Positions 1 through 7,639 of a DNA stretch of 51,704 bases are shown in pieces; the stretch's first letter is position 1; each line of letters starts with the position of its first letter. Source of the stretch: Methanobacteriota archaeon (GTDB taxonomy: Archaea > Thermoplasmatota > Poseidoniia > Poseidoniales > Poseidoniaceae); NCBI GenBank assembly GCA_018662825.1, contig JABJFI010000070.1, positions 1 through 51,704 of the forward strand. Reading direction: 5' to 3'. Below the pieces are notes generated by a model that did no database searches, was not told where the DNA came from, and saw only the letters and a list, made by a program, of their open reading frames with translations. Position numbers and translations under genes: made by a program.

Positions 1-38
1 ACGAAAAACACCCTTGTAAATGACTATCCTATATTCAT

Positions 39-101
39 GGGTTAGCAGTGGGTCATATACAACGCTACCCTCATGCTCGCATACGTGCACAAGGGGACCC
101 C
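39..101 (+). repeat. Upstream repeat element, copy A
   Basis: This is one of three copies of a non-coding element at the left edge. Its first part, GGGTTAGCAGTGGGT (39-53), nine variable bases and CGCTACC (63-69), recurs with identical spacing in copy C on the minus strand. Its second part (60-100) matches copy B (3326-3286, minus strand) at 34 of 41 positions without gaps, including TACCCTCATGCTCG (66-79). It ends 36 bases before the lipoprotein start codon, so a regulatory role is plausible. A recombination-site origin is an alternative. Confidence 0.6.
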
Positions 102-136
102 ATGTATTCATTTACTTCATGGGTTGTGGAAACTCC

Positions 137-2251
137 ATGAAGAAATTGCAAACACTTCTTTTTACTTTGATGATGATTACCGTTTCACTCGCAGGATGCA
201 CCGATTTATCGAATCAAGTCGACTTGGATGGAGATACCGTTGTTGACGCGGATGACCTATGTCCAGACACTGATACTGGATTATCAGTGGATTTAGATGG
301 ATGTGCTGACAATCAATTGGACGATGATGGCGACCTTGTCATGAACGATGTTGATCTTTGCCCGAATACCCCTGCAGGTGCTGTTGTCGATGCCACAGGC
401 TGTGAACTGCCTGATGCTGATGAAGATGGAATTACTGATGCTGATGACTTGTGCCCTGATACCGATGTTGGTGCAACTGTCGATACAAACGGTTGTGCTG
501 ACAATCAATTGGATGATGATGGTGACCTTGTGATGAACGATGTTGATCTCTGTCCAAACACACCTCCTGGAATAACAGTCGATGCAACTGGTTGTGAACT
601 AATTGCCGACGCTGACGGAGATGGAGTTGCTGATGCTGACGACGATTGTCCAAATACAGATGTTGGAGCGATTGTTGATGCGAGTGGGTGTGCTGAGTAT
701 CAATTAGACGCTGACGAAGATGGAGTTGCTGATGCTGACGACGATTGTCCAAATACAGATGTTGGAGCGATTGTTGATGCGAGTGGGTGTGCTGAGAATC
801 AATTAGACGATGATGGCGATGGAGTGATGAACGACGTTGACCTTTGTCCAATTACAGTTTCAGGAGCCATTGTAGATTCCGTGGGCTGCGACAGATCTTT
901 TGATGTTATTTTACAGAAAACAAACTTGACAAATCCAGTGAAATTTGGCGAATCATTGGTGTTGATAGATGCTGATTACGATAATTACTCTTGTACACTT
1001 ATCTTGGTAGATATTACCACTTTAACGATAGAAGAAATAGTCATTGATGCTTTTCCATCTCCCGATACATATAATACAAATGTCCCAGTTGTAAGCGGTG
1101 ATTTTTTCTATTTTACAGCAAATGATCAAAATCATGGCGAAGAATTGTGGGTTAGTGATGGAACGTTAACGGGCACATTTATGATTAAAGACATCAATCC
1201 TGGAAGTGAAGCTGGGGATCTAAGACACCTTACTGATGTTAACAGCATTCTTTATTTTACTGCAGATGATGGTGTCAGCGGTCTTGAATTATGGAAGACT
1301 GATGGTACTGAGATTGGTACGGCGATGGTCAAAGACATCAATAGTGGAGATGGCCACTCTAACCCTATACGTTTGACAAATGTTAGTAATACACTCTACT
1401 TCTCAGCGACAGATGGTGCACATGGTGAAGAACTTTGGAAAAGCGATGGAACCGATATCGGAACCAAGATGGTTAAGGATACATGCGCAGGGTCTTGCGC
1501 CGCTTATCCATGGGATATTACGCCACTAGGAAATGTTGTTTTCTTCACAGTAAATGATGGCGTTCACGGACGTGAAATATGGGTTTCTGATGGAACATCA
1601 AGTGGCACAGTACTACTTAAAGACATTAATCCAGAAGGTTCCGGTGTGCTTTCGAACTTTGTTCCTCCGAATGACCTTACTGCGGTCGGCAACACTCTCT
1701 ATTTTCACGCCGACGATGGAAATGGACCTGAGTTATGGAAAACAGATGGCACTAACATAGGTACACAAATGGTAAAAGACATCTTTGATGACACAACAGC
1801 TGCTAGTGGAGATCCTGGAGTGCTGAAAATGGTAGCGATCGACAATATTCTCTATTTCGTAATTCAATCTGATGGAAATAGCGCTTCTCCCTCATATGAT
1901 GGTTGCGATAAAGAACTTTGGAGAACTGATGGTACAGAGCTCGGGACTTTTATGGTGAAAGATATTGATGATGGTTGTGGCATGCTCGGCGGACTGAATG
2001 GTATGATTGCAGTAGAAAGCGATCTTTACTTCTTTTCAAACAAGGCCTCCACGCCAGACAAGTACTTATGGAAGACAGATGGTAGTGATTCTGGAACTGT
2101 CAGATATTTATCGTTAGTTGGTCTCGATACTCCTTCTTGGTCTATCGGCACTGATGCATTTGATATTTGCTCAGCAGATTCAAATTCACTTTTCTTCACT
2201 TATTTTGACAGTACAATGAACTCAAGATACTTAGCGACGTACGAAATTTAA
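137..2251 (+). CDS. Lipoprotein with calcium-type DxDxDG repeats and ELWxxDGT repeats
   Basis: This is a predicted secreted, membrane-anchored protein of 704 residues; its function is unknown. I chose the ATG at 137 because it begins a signal peptide (Lys-Lys, hydrophobic stretch) ending in a lipobox, LAGC, with Cys21 as the lipidated residue. The open frame extends 39 codons further upstream, but that part lies over repeat element A. Residues about 25-255 hold seven units of about 33 residues of the thrombospondin type 3/OmpA-linker kind (acidic loop, CPxT, GxxVDxxGC), likely calcium-binding. Two adjacent units are almost identical in DNA. The rest holds seven ELWxxDGT-type repeats (for example GLELWKTDGTEIGT), a family thought to form propeller-like structures. 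It probably acts in surface binding or adhesion. No enzymatic motif is visible. Confidence 0.8.
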   Translation: MKKLQTLLFTLMMITVSLAGCTDLSNQVDLDGDTVVDADDLCPDTDTGLSVDLDGCADNQLDDDGDLVMNDVDLCPNTPAGAVVDATGCELPDADEDGITDADDLCPDTDVGATVDTNGCADNQLDDDGDLVMNDVDLCPNTPPGITVDATGCELIADADGDGVADADDDCPNTDVGAIVDASGCAEYQLDADEDGVADADDDCPNTDVGAIVDASGCAENQLDDDGDGVMNDVDLCPITVSGAIVDSVGCDRSFDVILQKTNLTNPVKFGESLVLIDADYDNYSCTLILVDITTLTIEEIVIDAFPSPDTYNTNVPVVSGDFFYFTANDQNHGEELWVSDGTLTGTFMIKDINPGSEAGDLRHLTDVNSILYFTADDGVSGLELWKTDGTEIGTAMVKDINSGDGHSNPIRLTNVSNTLYFSATDGAHGEELWKSDGTDIGTKMVKDTCAGSCAAYPWDITPLGNVVFFTVNDGVHGREIWVSDGTSSGTVLLKDINPEGSGVLSNFVPPNDLTAVGNTLYFHADDGNGPELWKTDGTNIGTQMVKDIFDDTTAASGDPGVLKMVAIDNILYFVIQSDGNSASPSYDGCDKELWRTDGTELGTFMVKDIDDGCGMLGGLNGMIAVESDLYFFSNKASTPDKYLWKTDGSDSGTVRYLSLVGLDTPSWSIGTDAFDICSADSNSLFFTYFDSTMNSRYLATYEI
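621..809 (+). repeat. 99-bp tandem duplication inside the lipoprotein gene
   Basis: Bases 621-697 and 720-796 are identical, a period of 99 bases (33 codons), and identity continues with one mismatch to 710/809. Other units of the same protein repeat differ much more, so this copy looks like a recent in-frame expansion. It lies in the calcium-type repeat region. Confidence 0.85.
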
Positions 2252-2560
2252 ATGATGAAACAAACGAGCATGAATTGTTTGCGAAGTCTTCCAACGACTC
2301 TCTCTTCACAACTAATGTCGCTTAGAATGCCTCGTGACAAGTCTATTTCTTACTGCGCATCATAATCATAATGTTTTAAATTAATGAAATGGATAAGTGA
2401 ATAGCCTATTATCACAAGGGTTTCATCATAACACCCTTTGATTCATTTTGTCCTTACACATGGCCTTGCTATGGGCCATATACGTCGGTAGCGACGAATA
2501 GCACCCACTGCTAACCCTTGTGTAATCAAATTCGTTAACATGGGTATTATGGAGAAACCC
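2252..2560. other. Gene-free stretch with inverted repeats
   Basis: No credible open frame lies in these 309 bases between the lipoprotein and zinc-ribbon stop codons. It contains repeat copy C (2481-2517). A perfect 9-base inverted pair, CACAAGGGT at 2413-2421 and ACCCTTGTG at 2514-2522, surrounds copy C. A shorter hairpin (AAGGGT 2416-2421 with ACCCTT 2433-2438) lies inside. Both flanking genes end here, so terminators are expected, but I see no clear T-run signal. Confidence 0.5.
2481..2517 (-). repeat. Upstream repeat element, copy C
   Basis: On the minus strand, GGGTTAGCAGTGGGT (2517-2503), nine bases, then CGCTACC (2493-2487) reproduces the first part of copy A with the same spacing. 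Downstream of it on that strand there is no gene, only a five-codon frame, so this copy is either a remnant, a recombination site or the promoter of a non-coding RNA. It lies just after the stop of the zinc-ribbon gene, in the same orientation as copy B. Confidence 0.55.
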
Positions 2561-3226
2561 TCATGAATTCAACCATGATAAATTTGATACCCCATGTTGG
2601 TCTCTAAGTGCATCTAAATCAATTCCGCAATCAGCAGCAAATCTCTCTAATGCATCAATATATGAAGTTGCTGAAATTTCACCGACTTCATCAATTTCCG
2701 AGTCAGTATCTAACCCTTCTAATTTCACTTTGAGTATATTTACACATTCTTGAATAATTTTGAAAATACCAGCATCAACTTTCTCCCTAAATCGGTATGG
2801 TAGGGTATAGTCATCGTCATCAACTTCAAAAGAGGTCTCTTCACGCTCTAAATATGCGGCTCCAAGATTAAATATGCTTCTTAATCTATCAAGATCAATG
2901 AACCTACTATGGGCAAAACCTTCTAATGCCGAAATGTAGTTAACGGCATTTGCCTCTGCCTCTTCATCTGTTTCTTCATCTACATCATCCTCAATAAATT
3001 CATTTCCTTGTTCCAATAAACCCGAAGAATGCAATGCTTTAACCATTGCATTTGCAATTAGGTCTGGGTCGTTATTGACTATGGTATGATTGACATCGCC
3101 GATAAAAACTCCGTCTCTAGAATCAATACTTAATGAAGATTCAGATGGTATTATTTTGTTAGAACAATTAGGGCAAAAATCCCAACCCACATCAACTTCA
3201 AAACCACAGTGTACGCACACAGGCAT
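2561..3226 (-). CDS. Zinc-ribbon protein of unknown function with a duplicated motif
   Basis: I do not recognise the family. The 221-residue product starts with a rubredoxin-knuckle zinc ribbon (Cys4, Cys7, Cys18, Cys21). A short motif about residues 38-52 (DGVFIGDVNHTIVNN) resembles the C-terminal motif of the membrane protein at 49603-50574. An acidic linker (77-92) follows. A 20-residue helical motif appears twice, at 97-116 and 189-208 (YI-ALE-FA---IDLD-LR pattern). There is no signal peptide or membrane segment, so it is probably cytoplasmic. The start at 3226 sits 27-28 bases after a TATA-like AATATATATATT, which suggests a leaderless transcript. Copies B and C of the left-edge repeat flank the gene in the same orientation. 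Confidence 0.7.
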   Translation of the reverse strand: MPVCVHCGFEVDVGWDFCPNCSNKIIPSESSLSIDSRDGVFIGDVNHTIVNNDPDLIANAMVKALHSSGLLEQGNEFIEDDVDEETDEEAEANAVNYISALEGFAHSRFIDLDRLRSIFNLGAAYLEREETSFEVDDDDYTLPYRFREKVDAGIFKIIQECVNILKVKLEGLDTDSEIDEVGEISATSYIDALERFAADCGIDLDALRDQHGVSNLSWLNS

Positions 3227-3247
3227 ATACCAAACAGCAGTTTTGGG

Positions 3248-3259
3248 AATATATATATT
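3248..3259 (-). promoter_or_regulatory. TATA box of the zinc-ribbon gene
   Basis: AATATATATATT is centred about 27-28 bases before the ATG at 3226. That is the archaeal TATA-to-start spacing, so the transcript is probably leaderless and this also supports the chosen start codon. Repeat copy B lies about 27 bases further upstream. Confidence 0.55.
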
Positions 3260-3285
3260 GTGATAAAAAGTAAAGATACTATAAC

Positions 3286-3326
3286 GGGGGCCCTTGCATA
3301 CGTATACGAGCATGAGGGTACCGTTG
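3286..3326 (-). repeat. Upstream repeat element, copy B
   Basis: Read on the minus strand, 3326-3286 aligns gap-free with 60-100, with 34 of 41 bases identical, including TACCCTCATGCTCG (3320-3307), ATACGT (3305-3300) and CAAGGG (3296-3291). It lies just upstream of the TATA box of the zinc-ribbon gene, the equivalent position to copy A before the lipoprotein gene. It begins 30 bases beyond the actin-like gene stop codon. Confidence 0.65.
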
Positions 3327-3355
3327 AGTTCAAATCCACTCGACAGATTTCCAAA

Positions 3356-4381
3356 TCAGCGAGTTGCAAGAGTTAGGTTCTTCCACATCTCTTCTGGAAC
3401 TTCCATTGCAAGGCGAAGACCGCCCATAGCACCGAGGCGCACTGGGTCATCGACAACGTGGACATTGACATCGCCCATATCCGAAAGTTTACGTTCGATC
3501 ATTGCACCGAGTCCTCGAATTCCAGAACCGCCACCAGCGAGAACCATGTTTCGGCGGAACTCATCGTGGTATTCAGGATTTGAACCTGCAATCAATTGCT
3601 TGACATTTTCGACAATTGGGTCAACAATCGATTCACATGCACGTTGAATGCAATCGGTAATGTCAAGATTCATTGCCTTTCCTTCAATTGAGAAATCGAC
3701 CATTACTGGTGAATCTGGAGTAGCTGAACCAACAAAGGAATGCTGTTCCTTCCAACGTCGAGCCATGTCTTTGGTAATTTGAGCACCACTGTATTTCGAT
3801 TGAACTTCTTCGATTATTTTTCGGTCAACGAAATCTCCTGCATAGCCGGTGTGCATTTGGTCACTAGGGCCAGGAATAGTTCCGTAAACACGACAAAGGT
3901 CGGCTGTTCCAGCACCAATATCGATAACAAGTGTATGTTCAATCATATCCAATGCATAAGCAACAGCGAAAGGCTCGGAAATAATCATTGCAGCGTTAAC
4001 TGAACCAGCGGCTGCATCAAAAATAGCGGTCTTATCGACATAACTTGCTTCTGCAGGTGCACCAATAACTGCAACCACACGGTTGTAATCTTCAGGGTCT
4101 GATAGACCTATGAGGTGAGTGATGAAGTGCGCGATAAATTCACGGTCTTCTTGTGTATCTTTGATAACACCCAATTCCAAAGGTCGGAATAGGTTGAGTG
4201 CGAGTCGATTCTTGAGGGCTTCCTCACCAAAAAGAACATCTCGCTTGAGGAAATTTCGTGCGATTGGATCTTTAGGAGTACCAATGACTGTGAGTTCTTC
4301 TTCTTCGTGGCTATCCGAAGATACCATGACGGAACGGAAGGTTCCTAAATCAATTCCAATATACAATATGTCTTCTGCCAT
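3356..4381 (-). CDS. MreB/MamK-like actin-family ATPase
   Basis: The 341-residue product is an actin-fold ATPase related to MreB and MamK, expected to form cytoplasmic filaments. Visible signatures are phosphate-1 (GIDLGT, residues 9-14), the connect-1 type IISEPFAVAYAL segment, phosphate-2 (VIDIGAGTADL) and the adenosine motif (VLAGGGSGIRGL) near residue 280. The length matches MreB (about 340). No MreC, MreD or penicillin-binding protein gene adjoins it, so a peptidoglycan role is not implied; cell shape or spatial organisation is a guess. A TATA-like stretch occurs at 4464-4473 on the minus strand. It could be a crenactin relative, but the sequence reads closer to bacterial MreB/MamK. Confidence 0.85.
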   Translation of the reverse strand: MAEDILYIGIDLGTFRSVMVSSDSHEEEELTVIGTPKDPIARNFLKRDVLFGEEALKNRLALNLFRPLELGVIKDTQEDREFIAHFITHLIGLSDPEDYNRVVAVIGAPAEASYVDKTAIFDAAAGSVNAAMIISEPFAVAYALDMIEHTLVIDIGAGTADLCRVYGTIPGPSDQMHTGYAGDFVDRKIIEEVQSKYSGAQITKDMARRWKEQHSFVGSATPDSPVMVDFSIEGKAMNLDITDCIQRACESIVDPIVENVKQLIAGSNPEYHDEFRRNMVLAGGGSGIRGLGAMIERKLSDMGDVNVHVVDDPVRLGAMGGLRLAMEVPEEMWKNLTLATR

Positions 4382-4538
4382 AGCACTCGCCTACCCTCGC
4401 CATTGCGAACTACCTTATGAAGAATACCTCGCTCCTGCGAGAAGACTTCCACGCATTCAAACAAAATATATTCCTCACAGCTTGTAATGCCAATCTATAG
4501 AATGTGGCATATAGGTGCATAAATATTTGAAAAGGGCT

Positions 4539-5555
4539 TCAACACCATTCTTCACAGCCTTGACAATACCATGCTGCATATTCTGGATATAGTTGAGCCA
4601 TTTTCCCACATGAAGTACATTCCTTGAGTGTATCTTCACCATACATTTCTAAAACCATTTGGACATGATAGACATCGTCAATACCTAATTGTTGCCTCAT
4701 TGACCACAATAATTGGTCCTCACTTGGAGATATGATACCATCTTCCAAAACCAATTCGACGATGTTCCGGTAATCCTCAAAATCTTGCAAATTACGGGCA
4801 TCTAGAACAATGCCATTCTTCTCTGCAACGATGTCCGTTCCTCCTGGGTCATCGATAAATAAAACTAATGATTCTGGCTTCAATTCATCGTTTCGAAGTT
4901 CGAAGGAAATACGAACTCCTTCTAGTGTTGCAAATACTAAATTTGAGTTGTTGTTGATTGTCATGGCAATCGAACGGGCTGTATCTTCTGCCGAGCGGCC
5001 CTTTCTCCAACCGTTAGGATCGTTGACATTAAAACAATAAAATTCAGTACCTTTGCCTGGATATTCAAGTCGTATTTCTTCACCTCCATCAAAGCCGTTG
5101 GCAACCACGGTCAACGCTGCGACTTCTGTCGAAACAATATTATCCTCATCATCAAAACTAATCATGAGAGGTTTCCTCTCCTCGGCAGCCGTGTTAAAAT
5201 GTCCTTGCATACCAGTCATCCATTTATCCTCAAGACGGGCGAGAGATTCTTCTTGAACTTTTGAGAGGTTTTTGTCAACACCAAGGACACCTGCAAGACT
5301 TCCACTTTCGATTTCACGCTTGAACTCCTCAATCTGTTGACTGTCTTGATGATAGGTAGGAATCTCTAGTTGGTTGGATTCTTCAACAAAATTCGGGTCT
5401 TTCCAGTCATGTTGACAAGAAACACAATTGAGGTATCCGTTCATGGTCGATGGCTGAGCATCACCTCCACAACGAGGGCAGTCTCCATCCTCATTGTAAC
5501 CAAGGTTCTCAACTGCCTCGCGTCGACCCTTTCGTATGTTCCCAAATCCTGCCAT
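4539..5555 (-). CDS. Protein with zinc ribbons at both ends, unknown function
   Basis: I do not recognise this 338-residue protein. It has an N-terminal CxxC-14-CxxC zinc ribbon (Cys26, Cys29, Cys44, Cys47) and a C-terminal one (Cys313, Cys316, Cys331, Cys334, plus the last residue Cys338). The centre has no catalytic motif that I can name. Residues about 255-310 include a segment (DGIISPSEDQLLW then LGI) reminiscent of TerB or EF-hand-like helical modules common in archaeal hypothetical proteins. There is no signal peptide or membrane segment. It stands between the actin-like gene and the DUF35/thiolase pair with its own 64-base upstream gap, so it is probably a separate unit. Confidence 0.7.
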   Translation of the reverse strand: MAGFGNIRKGRREAVENLGYNEDGDCPRCGGDAQPSTMNGYLNCVSCQHDWKDPNFVEESNQLEIPTYHQDSQQIEEFKREIESGSLAGVLGVDKNLSKVQEESLARLEDKWMTGMQGHFNTAAEERKPLMISFDDEDNIVSTEVAALTVVANGFDGGEEIRLEYPGKGTEFYCFNVNDPNGWRKGRSAEDTARSIAMTINNNSNLVFATLEGVRISFELRNDELKPESLVLFIDDPGGTDIVAEKNGIVLDARNLQDFEDYRNIVELVLEDGIISPSEDQLLWSMRQQLGIDDVYHVQMVLEMYGEDTLKECTSCGKMAQLYPEYAAWYCQGCEEWC

Positions 5556-5619
5556 ATTGTATGCACATCATTGCCTTTCTATCAAGGCTTTGGATATATC
5601 AAATGAAAAAATAATGTTA

Positions 5620-6471
5620 TTATTGGCGCACAGGAATGGCTTTGAGTCCATACCGAATGATTCCTTCTTGAGCATATATCTTTCGAACTGCAAAATGAAC
5701 TATGTCACCGATAACTGGTGAATAGTCTACATCGTCTGTAACCAAAAAAACACCTCGAGGACCCTGCTCAAAACTTACTAAAAGTGTTTGAAGGCCACCG
5801 AGGATAGGAGCACGTAAAGAAAATTCTGATGGTGCTCCAGCAGCACTGAGTTTTGTCCATGATTCAACCTTAGCCTTGCCAATGAGAAGTTCTGATTCCG
5901 AAGGAAGACGGCGCCCTAAAGAATCGAGTTGACGTGGGGGCCAAATGAGATTTCCATCAACATTTTGTGATGCAAGTGACAAACGTGCTCGGGCACCTTC
6001 AAGATACTGAGATTGAGAAACATAAGCACCCTGAGACACATTACTAGTTGATTGTTCAAGACACCAAGCCTCCCCCATGTCGTTATGGAACTCTGCATCG
6101 ATAATTTCAACATCCTGCGGTGCATCAAAATCGCATATCTCGGTGTCAACCTTGGCAACGACAAGAGTCGCTTCATCTCCAGCCAAAACATCCCACTTGA
6201 TTTCGTCAAATTCCAACTCATCGTTATGAAAAGGAGAGTCTACACCAGTAGCCAAGTAGACAGTTGAGGCATCAATAGATTCTGGAAGATGTATTGCATT
6301 AATTTGATGGCCATTGATTTGCATCAATTGGATTGCAGCAACCGCCATTGTAGTAGAGTCGCTATCTGGGCCATAGACAATTTTTTCTTCATGAACATAG
6401 GGTGATTGGATGTACAGGGAGTCCTCAGCCTCGACGACCAAATAGCCCTTCCAATGCTGGTTCTCAGACAT
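5620..6471 (-). CDS. DUF35-type OB-fold partner of thiolase, with extra N-terminal domain
   Basis: The C-terminal part (about residues 157-283) matches the DUF35 family: an alpha-helical stretch, a WPPR motif (177-180, usual form FPPR), then an OB-fold. In archaea DUF35 proteins bridge acetoacetyl-CoA thiolase and HMG-CoA synthase at the start of the mevalonate pathway. Here the usual zinc-ribbon cysteines around PPR are absent. Residues 1-155 form an additional domain that I cannot identify; a degenerate thiolase/HMG-CoA-synthase-like fold is possible. The start at 6471 has a Shine-Dalgarno GGGAGAG and overlaps the thiolase stop by eight bases, which indicates translational coupling. Confidence 0.75.
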   Translation of the reverse strand: MSENQHWKGYLVVEAEDSLYIQSPYVHEEKIVYGPDSDSTTMAVAAIQLMQINGHQINAIHLPESIDASTVYLATGVDSPFHNDELEFDEIKWDVLAGDEATLVVAKVDTEICDFDAPQDVEIIDAEFHNDMGEAWCLEQSTSNVSQGAYVSQSQYLEGARARLSLASQNVDGNLIWPPRQLDSLGRRLPSESELLIGKAKVESWTKLSAAGAPSEFSLRAPILGGLQTLLVSFEQGPRGVFLVTDDVDYSPVIGDIVHFAVRKIYAQEGIIRYGLKAIPVRQ

Positions 6472-7639
6472 TTCTATCTCTCCCAAATATATGAACGGCA
6501 CAGGTTGCACCAGAACCGCCTACATTGTGCGTCAATCCAATTTCTGCATCTCTAACCTGTCGCGTATTTTCAACTGAGCCCCTCAGTTGCTTGAACACCT
6601 CAACGGCTTGACCCGTTCCAGTTGCTCCTAAGGGATGACCTTTGGATTTGAGTCCACCACTAGGATTGATACATACGGAACCTTCGTTTCTTATTCCATT
6701 TCCTTCACGTGCAAAAATTCCACCTTGCCCGTGTTCGGAAAATCCAAGATCTTCAGTAGCCATTAATTCGGCGATTGTAAAACAATCATGGACTTCGGCT
6801 AAATCCACATCATTTGCAGTTAAACCAGCAGCAGAATATGCTGATTGTGAGGCTTTTTGAGTTGCTAATAATTGTGTAATAGATGGACGGTCATGGAGAG
6901 CCAATCGGTCAGATGCTGCTCCAGAAGAACGCACCCACACTGGGTCGTCAGTAAATTGTCGTACTACATGGTCAGCAGCTAGAATAACGCAGGAGGCACC
7001 ATCCGATGTTGGACAGCAATCATACAGCGTGAGAGGGTCGGCTACCATGAAACCATTTTCAGCCTTATCAAAGGATACTTGTTTTCTAAGGTGTGCTTGT
7101 TCATTATCAAAACCATGCATGTGGTTTTTGACGCTAATATGGACCAAATCATCATGCGAGGATTCATGTTCATGGAAATGCCGACGTGCCATCAAGGCAT
7201 AAGTTCCCGGAAAAGTGAGGCCTGCTAGACGTTCCCATTCAGTATCGCCTGAAACACCGAGCCAAAAGCGCTTACGTTCGGCTGAAAGGTCATTCATTTT
7301 CTCGATGCCACCGGCCACGACAATGTCTGCTTGTCCACTCTTAATCGCCATCCAAGCATCACGTAATGCGAAACCCGAAGATGCGCAAGCATTTTCTACA
7401 CGCCGGACTGGAATTCCGTCCAATCCGGAATGTTCGGTCAGTAACGCGGCAGTATTGCCCAGTTGCGCACCTCCAAATGCTACACTTCCAATGAAGGCCT
7501 CATCAACTTGATGTGGGTCAAAATTTTTGTCGACGGACGAAAAAGCGTTTTCCGCAGCCTCAGCCCACATTCCCTTCAAACCAAGTTGGTGATTACCATA
7601 CTTTGTTTGACCAGCACCGATGACGGCAACATCGACCAT
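6464..7639 (-). CDS. Thiolase-family acetyl-CoA C-acyltransferase
   Basis: The 391-residue product is a thiolase of the archaeal/SCP-x type, expected to make acetoacetyl-CoA from two acetyl-CoA. Visible features are the nucleophilic Cys85 in NACASSG, the VHDCFT histidine motif and the C-terminal GHPLGATG motif with the catalytic histidine. The ATG at 7639 opens a typical thiolase N-terminus (VAVIGAGQTKYG); the open frame continues 46 codons upstream, but into the KptA promoter side. It overlaps the DUF35 gene, the standard archaeal pairing for mevalonate synthesis. A role in fatty-acid beta-oxidation is the main alternative, since no HMG-CoA synthase adjoins it. Confidence 0.88.
   Translation of the reverse strand: MVDVAVIGAGQTKYGNHQLGLKGMWAEAAENAFSSVDKNFDPHQVDEAFIGSVAFGGAQLGNTAALLTEHSGLDGIPVRRVENACASSGFALRDAWMAIKSGQADIVVAGGIEKMNDLSAERKRFWLGVSGDTEWERLAGLTFPGTYALMARRHFHEHESSHDDLVHISVKNHMHGFDNEQAHLRKQVSFDKAENGFMVADPLTLYDCCPTSDGASCVILAADHVVRQFTDDPVWVRSSGAASDRLALHDRPSITQLLATQKASQSAYSAAGLTANDVDLAEVHDCFTIAELMATEDLGFSEHGQGGIFAREGNGIRNEGSVCINPSGGLKSKGHPLGATGTGQAVEVFKQLRGSVENTRQVRDAEIGLTHNVGGSGATCAVHIFGRDRNV

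Follow-up and report, generated by a model that had tools for sequence, protein, structure and literature searches.

Archaeal integrons use IntI and attC (PMC9668308, in which Poseidoniales are never named), whereas IS607 elements are moved by serine transposases and have no terminal inverted repeats (PMC6188088). From the order Poseidoniales itself, the Charybdis elements have been described as circular, about 4.6 kb in length and with about ten genes, some of them integrated by tRNA genes and some encoding an integrase or recombinase (PMC12324425). The DNA considered here, contig JABJFI010000070.1 (positions 1 to 51,704 of the forward strand; GenBank assembly GCA_018662825.1) of a member of the Poseidoniaceae and hereafter called the window, carries at its left edge three copies, A, B and C, of a non-coding repeat, for which a sequence-only reading had left open the roles of operator, integration site or RNA. 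Judged from comparisons with related genomes, the copies are the boundaries of mobile gene cassettes, which are located differently in different Poseidoniales genomes. The explanation we favour, with a probability of roughly 0.66, is that these cassettes are serine-recombinase elements together with many non-autonomous passengers, gathered in integron-like arrays. In surface seawater, Poseidoniales count among the most abundant archaea; we know of no cultured member, and gene acquisition and swapping in this order are therefore largely unknown.

The likeness to integrons and to clusters of attC sites lacking integron-integrases (CALINs) lies in the small, mostly one-gene units, the recurrent recombination site between them and the accessory cargo. 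Here, however, the linked enzyme is a serine recombinase and not IntI, the core contains TA, the ends are dispersed in both orientations and there is no integration platform. That a canonical integron cassette array with IntI and attC, as in other archaea, accounts for the copies would agree with the arrays of mostly single genes and with the existence of archaeal integrons (PMC9668308), yet genes run in both directions and ends stand on both sides of the elements, dispersed over the chromosome. An IntI-type recombinase was not found beside the arrays: PF00589, which marks the sole conserved tyrosine recombinase, gives about one strong match per genome, element-free genomes included (the IntI-specific domain was not searched). 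Boxes of the attC kind (R''-L''-L'-R' with GTTRRRY) were not recognised in the commonest ends when these were judged by eye, and the phage-integrase family is not among the 25 families listed for cassette proteins. We regard this explanation as hardly credible. Charybdis elements are mobile DNA of the same order, but their gene content, by description only, is unlike that of the cassettes examined. No description of these cassettes was found in the open literature, subscription papers being outside the scope.

Repeat copies and anatomy of the ends

Copy A (39-101) and copy C (minus strand, 2517-2487) have in common GGGTTAGCAGTGGGT, followed by nine bases and then CGCTACC, while A and B are identical at 34 of 41 ungapped positions (83%); in the entire window no inverted match is longer than those of A/B (34/41) and A/C (34 nt, 82%). 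Genes at 137-2251 (plus strand) and 2561-3226 (minus strand) lie downstream of A and of B, respectively. The shared bases, the A/B agreement and the position ahead of two genes had been claimed beforehand and were borne out, and the search of the genome and its relatives, proposed at the same time, brought up further copies and conservation. The earlier description was too modest in three respects: the three copies are real, but only a part of about 27 distinct sites in the genome; the element, likewise real, was drawn too short, since hairpin, motif, core and second half together span about 100-160 bp; and copy C is double-sided.

The copies are junctions built about a core from which TA is almost never missing; its usual form is CTAC or CTAG. 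Among 200 distinct junctions, a set filtered for TA in the core, the core is CTAC in 133, CTAG in 49 and another sequence in 18, and TA is also present in nearly all strong matches of an unfiltered list of 92. On either side of a junction stands a cassette end or else a target. The end seen most often, which we call type 1, reads CAAAGGGCTTGCAGTGGGTC-N7-ACGC and then TA; the consensus of 200 ends is TCAAAGGGCTTGCAGTGGGTCN7ACGC directly before the TA. Conservation on this side covers about 60 bp (CCC, about 22 nt, TCAAAGGGCTTGCAGTGGGTC-N7-ACGC, then TA), and the complete terminus is a module of 60-90 bp with a short hairpin (AGGGT..ACCC) ahead of the motif, found in 15 copies. According to a rough pattern, the opposite side is an inverted type-1 end in 43 of the 200 junctions. 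Otherwise it is conserved for only about six bases (CCCTTT or CCCATG), with a recognisable subset forming the type-2 end, in which TA is followed by CC and CAGAGGGGNCCC lies about 25-30 bp from the core. The consensus outside the cassette is short, CCCTTTG after the TA. Contacts to the type-1 end are predicted at CAAAGGG, GCAGTGGGTC and the hairpin, and the latter may also serve as a terminator for the cassette gene.

Such a hairpin, the lack of any strong copy within a predicted gene (gene calls by a simple codon-usage script) and the many copies lying 5-105 nt past a stop codon are what one would expect of a regulatory or transcriptional element at intergenic positions, be it an operator, a terminator, a structure of the 3' untranslated region or a small RNA. 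This reading appears very unlikely to us, as the orientation is mixed (36 copies after a 3' end against 40 before a 5' end), structural covariation is low, the DNA delimited by the copies occurs or is missing as a whole, and two near-identical units have unrelated flanks. Among the three roles initially proposed, only the integration site was right in kind. The operator was rejected because copies stand at 3' ends as often as at 5' ends and in both orientations, and homology between loci breaks at the core; the independent RNA was rejected because the window has no Rfam match and the consensus has only eight base pairs, of which a single one shows any change on both sides. The window also contains no tRNA. 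We also discarded an H-type pseudoknot in the hairpin region, for which partner shuffling was unconvincing (mean stem 4.67 versus 4.21 in shuffles, standard deviation 0.11); the signal is driven by a minority of families, and the loop TATCCGAA is conserved even without the upstream partner. A simple model in which the ends dictate the direction of the cassette genes was abandoned as well, the ends occurring in both orientations to genes.

Copy number and distribution

In the following, G000 denotes the genome of the window (1.96 Mb), the other G numbers its relatives, C a contig and L a fetched locus. A 66-base query from copy A found nine other places in the genome, the significant ones being B, C, G000:C70:2165, C95:5336 and C12:24. 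A model built from 11 copies (R1) gave 39 matches at E<=1, several of them overlapping or representing one site on both strands, and its upstream extension including the hairpin (R2) gave 30; together they yield the about 27 distinct sites mentioned above, some matched on both strands. About nine sites are situated at most 400 nt from contig ends (C1, C12, C60, C64, C69, C70, C74, C87 and the window), as would be expected of repeats at which short-read assemblies break.

At E<=0.01, R2 matched 29 of 40 genomes, among them the majority of those from the genus and some from the sister family. A strict DNA pattern was found in 78 stretches among 84,980 species genomes, and 77 of these belong to genomes named Poseidoniales, Poseidonia, marine group II or unspecified Euryarchaeota/euryarchaeote, including the single-cell genomes AG-404-K16, AG-461-G23, AH-273-F07 and AH-273-O19. 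These names point by inference to Poseidoniales (marine group II) for the window as well. The remaining match, a 4.7-kb contig with a Poseidoniales-type end in a Gemmatimonadetes bin (L225, DUCW01000073.1), is probably misbinned. IMG/VR did not contain the strict pattern, which with regard to viral carriage speaks only against exact matches there. Consecutive type-1 cores within a locus are a median of 1.6 kb apart, while an even spread of the 23 matches of G003, the most element-rich relative, would space them by about 96 kb; as the loci were picked around elements, this shows clustering only in part.

Mobility of the cassettes and their cargo

The mobility of the cassettes is well supported. 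A unit encoding a 607-residue lipoprotein is present at two loci of G003 with 99.3% identity over 2,080 bp, with unrelated flanks and with its left edges at the core. Another unit, encoding an RDD protein, is 95-98% identical in three species (G003, G020, G016), with the left flanks parting precisely at GTACC and those on the right, for G003 and G020, at CTAC, and a unit with an alcohol dehydrogenase and HxlR, common to G003 and G016, starts at the core. A count over every fetched locus gave 197 internal homology ends, 29 of them no more than 8 nt from a core in one of the two partners, and positions this close to a core make up 0.4% of the sequence. Two genes that adjoin directly in G006 are separated in G003 by an insert of 1.8 kb, each end of which carries a TA core. 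Past a gene for a salactin-like protein, the inserts of G000, G003 and G008 begin at the same point, while G006 has no insert; the two outer flanks of the G008 inserts, if joined, would read ACACAACGGTACCGTTGTGT.

Palindromic joints such as this one, and one strong phage-integrase-type gene in 38 of the 40 genomes, might suggest elements that borrow the XerA-type tyrosine recombinase of the host, as do integrative mobile elements exploiting Xer (IMEX), with dif-like joints. The same tyrosine recombinase, however, is present in all element-free genomes, the bases beside the core vary with the end family (GACG, TGC, AGG) and thus leave no constant 11-bp arms, and a spacer of 6-8 bp is not evident; we therefore consider the borrowing of Xer improbable.

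The cassettes measure about 0.5-6 kb and contain one or a few genes. Most families among the 71 proteins encoded near the joints were seen once; resolvases (4), thrombospondin type 3 (TSP3) lipoproteins (3) and GH43, RDD, collagen-like and GDSL proteins (2 each) recur. Lipoproteins with TSP3 and ELWKSDGT motifs and internal repeats are found in several cassettes (G000:C12, C70 and 137-2251 of the window).

With many enzyme-free copies sharing the ends of few enzyme-bearing relatives, the cassettes resemble miniature inverted-repeat transposable elements (MITEs) and other non-autonomous transposons, but differ from them in carrying whole genes (for lipoproteins, RDD and zinc-ribbon proteins) and in having no matching DDE_3 transposase. 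MITE-like elements could have been spread by a TA-duplicating DDE transposase of the IS630/Tc1-mariner kind, the serine recombinases then being mere cargo, and the TA at both boundaries, the terminal inverted repeats of some elements and the short outside consensus are in line with it. We nevertheless judge it unlikely: DDE_3 (PF13358) was detected in none of the 40 genomes (three control genomes were positive; other DDE families were not searched), the ends are long (60-90 bp) and in some cases asymmetric, and adjacent elements have a core in common, an arrangement that random insertion at TA would not predict.

The linked serine recombinase

Four full-length genes between or beside ends, three in G016 and one in G032 (L119:3056-3841), encode serine recombinases of 257-262 amino acids, which match PF00239 with E-values of 1e-30 to 1e-32 and contain the YxRVSS motif. 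These elements thus harbour a resolvase catalytic domain, whereas most cassettes, including both in the window, do not; the Recombinase domain is only partial. Two further recombinases were encountered in public loci selected by the pattern (one in L235 and an apparently truncated one in L201). In each of the six cases the gene begins 78-353 bp inward of a type-1 end, towards which its 5' end points, and is read away from it. The recombinase units of G016 and G032 are 88% identical as far as the core. In G032 the element (L119, about 2812-7110) is bounded by inverted terminal repeats of 182 bp, themselves 88% identical. When the terminal 90 bp of three recombinase-bearing families are compared with other ends, 18, 13 and 9 of these reach >=0.80, against a median of 0.55 and a 95% value of 0.72 for random pairs; this agreement with many passenger ends is the picture one expects of a single element family with autonomous and non-autonomous members. 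PF00239 was found in nine genomes, all of them element-bearing, and in none of the 11 element-free genomes.

The catalytic domain is what the linked enzyme has in common with the elements of large serine integrases, with the staphylococcal cassette chromosome (SCC) and its CcrAB, and with IS607. Its closest named models are CcrB, XisF and CcrC, far under the cut-off, and its closest solved catalytic domain is that of the TP901-1 integrase. With about 260 amino acids it is, however, roughly half the size of Ccr and phage integrases, lacks the hallmark of the large serine integrases (about 450-600 amino acids with zinc-ribbon and coiled-coil) and is accompanied by many enzyme-free passengers. 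The 182-bp terminal repeats of the G032 element further set it apart from IS607.

Serine recombinases without type-1 ends are also present (L153, L154, L155, L161 and L162, corresponding to G004:C104, G008:C7, G000:C30, G032:C4 and G032:C18). Several of them adjoin apparent DNA methyltransferase or restriction-type genes, and L154-L157 have a different upstream repeat in common (AGTATGGCCGACCATATAGC...); the gene in G000 is interrupted by an internal stop. Such loci may be mobile defence islands.

Proposed mechanism and its weighing

Under the serine-recombinase reading, a cassette would be bounded on each side by a TA-containing core, with a type-1 end on one side and an inverted type-1 or a type-2 end on the other. 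Insertion would take place at TA, site-specifically or semi-specifically, with a preference for gene neighbourhoods and existing ends, and insertion beside existing ends would produce arrays whose neighbours share one core. The recombinase of about 260 amino acids is the presumed responsible enzyme; it would cut at the central dinucleotide of its own element, placing the crossover at TA, and would also move, in trans, units without a recombinase gene, a circular intermediate being likely. The most far-reaching form of this idea, namely that Poseidoniales capture genes in an integron-like manner by means of small serine recombinases, with two kinds of ends arraying single genes in either direction and with trans action on dozens of enzyme-free cassettes, is put forward tentatively and at somewhat less than even odds. 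If the trans-acting model is true, this would be a serine-recombinase counterpart of the integron. The recognisable end sequence allows mobile genes to be listed straight from metagenomes and helps to explain assembly breaks at these places, and a defined recombinase and DNA site are now available as a testable pair.

Several observations count against the serine-recombinase reading and should be kept in mind. The six adjacent recombinases were all found by looking near elements; taking all PF00239 matches of the 40 genomes, three of four are adjacent to ends in G016, but only one of four in G032. Two of the six recombinase ends tested (both in L117) match just one and no other end. The contrast of nine genomes versus none is weak (one-sided p about 0.04, calculated by hand without phylogenetic correction and including two weak matches). 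PF00239 was not found in G003, although this genome is 94% complete, nor in G020, and the one serine recombinase in the genome of the window belongs to another subfamily and has an internal stop; for element-rich genomes without a resolvase, one has to assume that the gene was lost, that the assembly misses it or that a different enzyme is at work. An exact empty target site was not found: the G006 comparison lacks half-sites, and searches at L109 and the MazG sites gave no orthologous uninterrupted site. Finally, the last 12-25 bp by the core differ between otherwise near-identical cassettes (right ends of L101/L109, left ends of L104/L112), an unexplained exchange in some copies that looks as if joints recombine with each other.

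The cassettes of the window

Within the window, two cassettes of one gene each, marked off by A, C and B, lie next to a salactin-like gene. The left half of copy A (1-64, plus strand) is a type-1 end with a hairpin remnant truncated at the contig edge and GGGTTAGCAGTGGGT-N9-CG, defined by an R2 match at 1-78 and by alignment; it is the end of a cassette lying leftward and cut off by the contig end. The core of this type-1/type-2 junction is CTAC at 65-68 on the plus strand (central TA 66-67), followed on the same strand by the type-2 end (CCTCATGCTCGCATACGTGCACAAGGGGACCCC, 69-104) on the 5' side of cassette 1, which is common to G000:C12, with homology running into the start of the downstream gene. 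This pre-gene sequence is located at the contig edges of both C12 and the window, and copies may have been split or merged there during assembly. The cargo of cassette 1 (open reading frame 137-2251, plus strand) is a lipoprotein with thrombospondin type 3 (Pfam TSP_3) and ELWKSDGT repeats.

Copy C, an inverted type-1/type-1 junction, is double-sided, its plus-strand R2 match (2411-2501, E 8.2e-9) overlapping the one on the minus strand (2478-2567, E 1.1e-12). The type-1-like end of cassette 1 occupies 2411-2487 on the plus strand, with the hairpin upstream, and the type-1 end of cassette 2, with the hairpin GGGTTTCTCCATAATACCC, occupies 2492-2567 on the minus strand. The core between them (GTAG/CTAC, 2488-2491, TA at 2489-2490) is common to the two convergent cassettes. 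Cassette 2 carries an open reading frame for a zinc-ribbon protein of unknown function (2561-3226, minus strand; weak Zn_Ribbon_1 match under the cut-off) and closes with a type-2 end (copy B, 3275-3317, minus strand), recognised by the inverted-match search and by alignment. Copy B is a native/type-2 junction, and the A/B alignment places its putative core, GTAC, at 3318-3321 (TA 3319-3320). The native half of the insertion site (3322-3355, minus strand), delimited by comparison with G003, G008 and G006, consists of the sequence that adjoins the salactin-like gene on its 3' side (GAACTCAACGG, then TA).

The salactin/MreB-like gene itself (3356-4381, minus strand), assigned by Pfam and by orthologues in relatives, is a conserved neighbour of the array. 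A second salactin/MreB-like actin gene at G000:C94:4950-5942 is 46% identical to the copy in the window; both genes are also found in most relatives, and the copy in the window and its orthologues from the genus share 87-97% identity.

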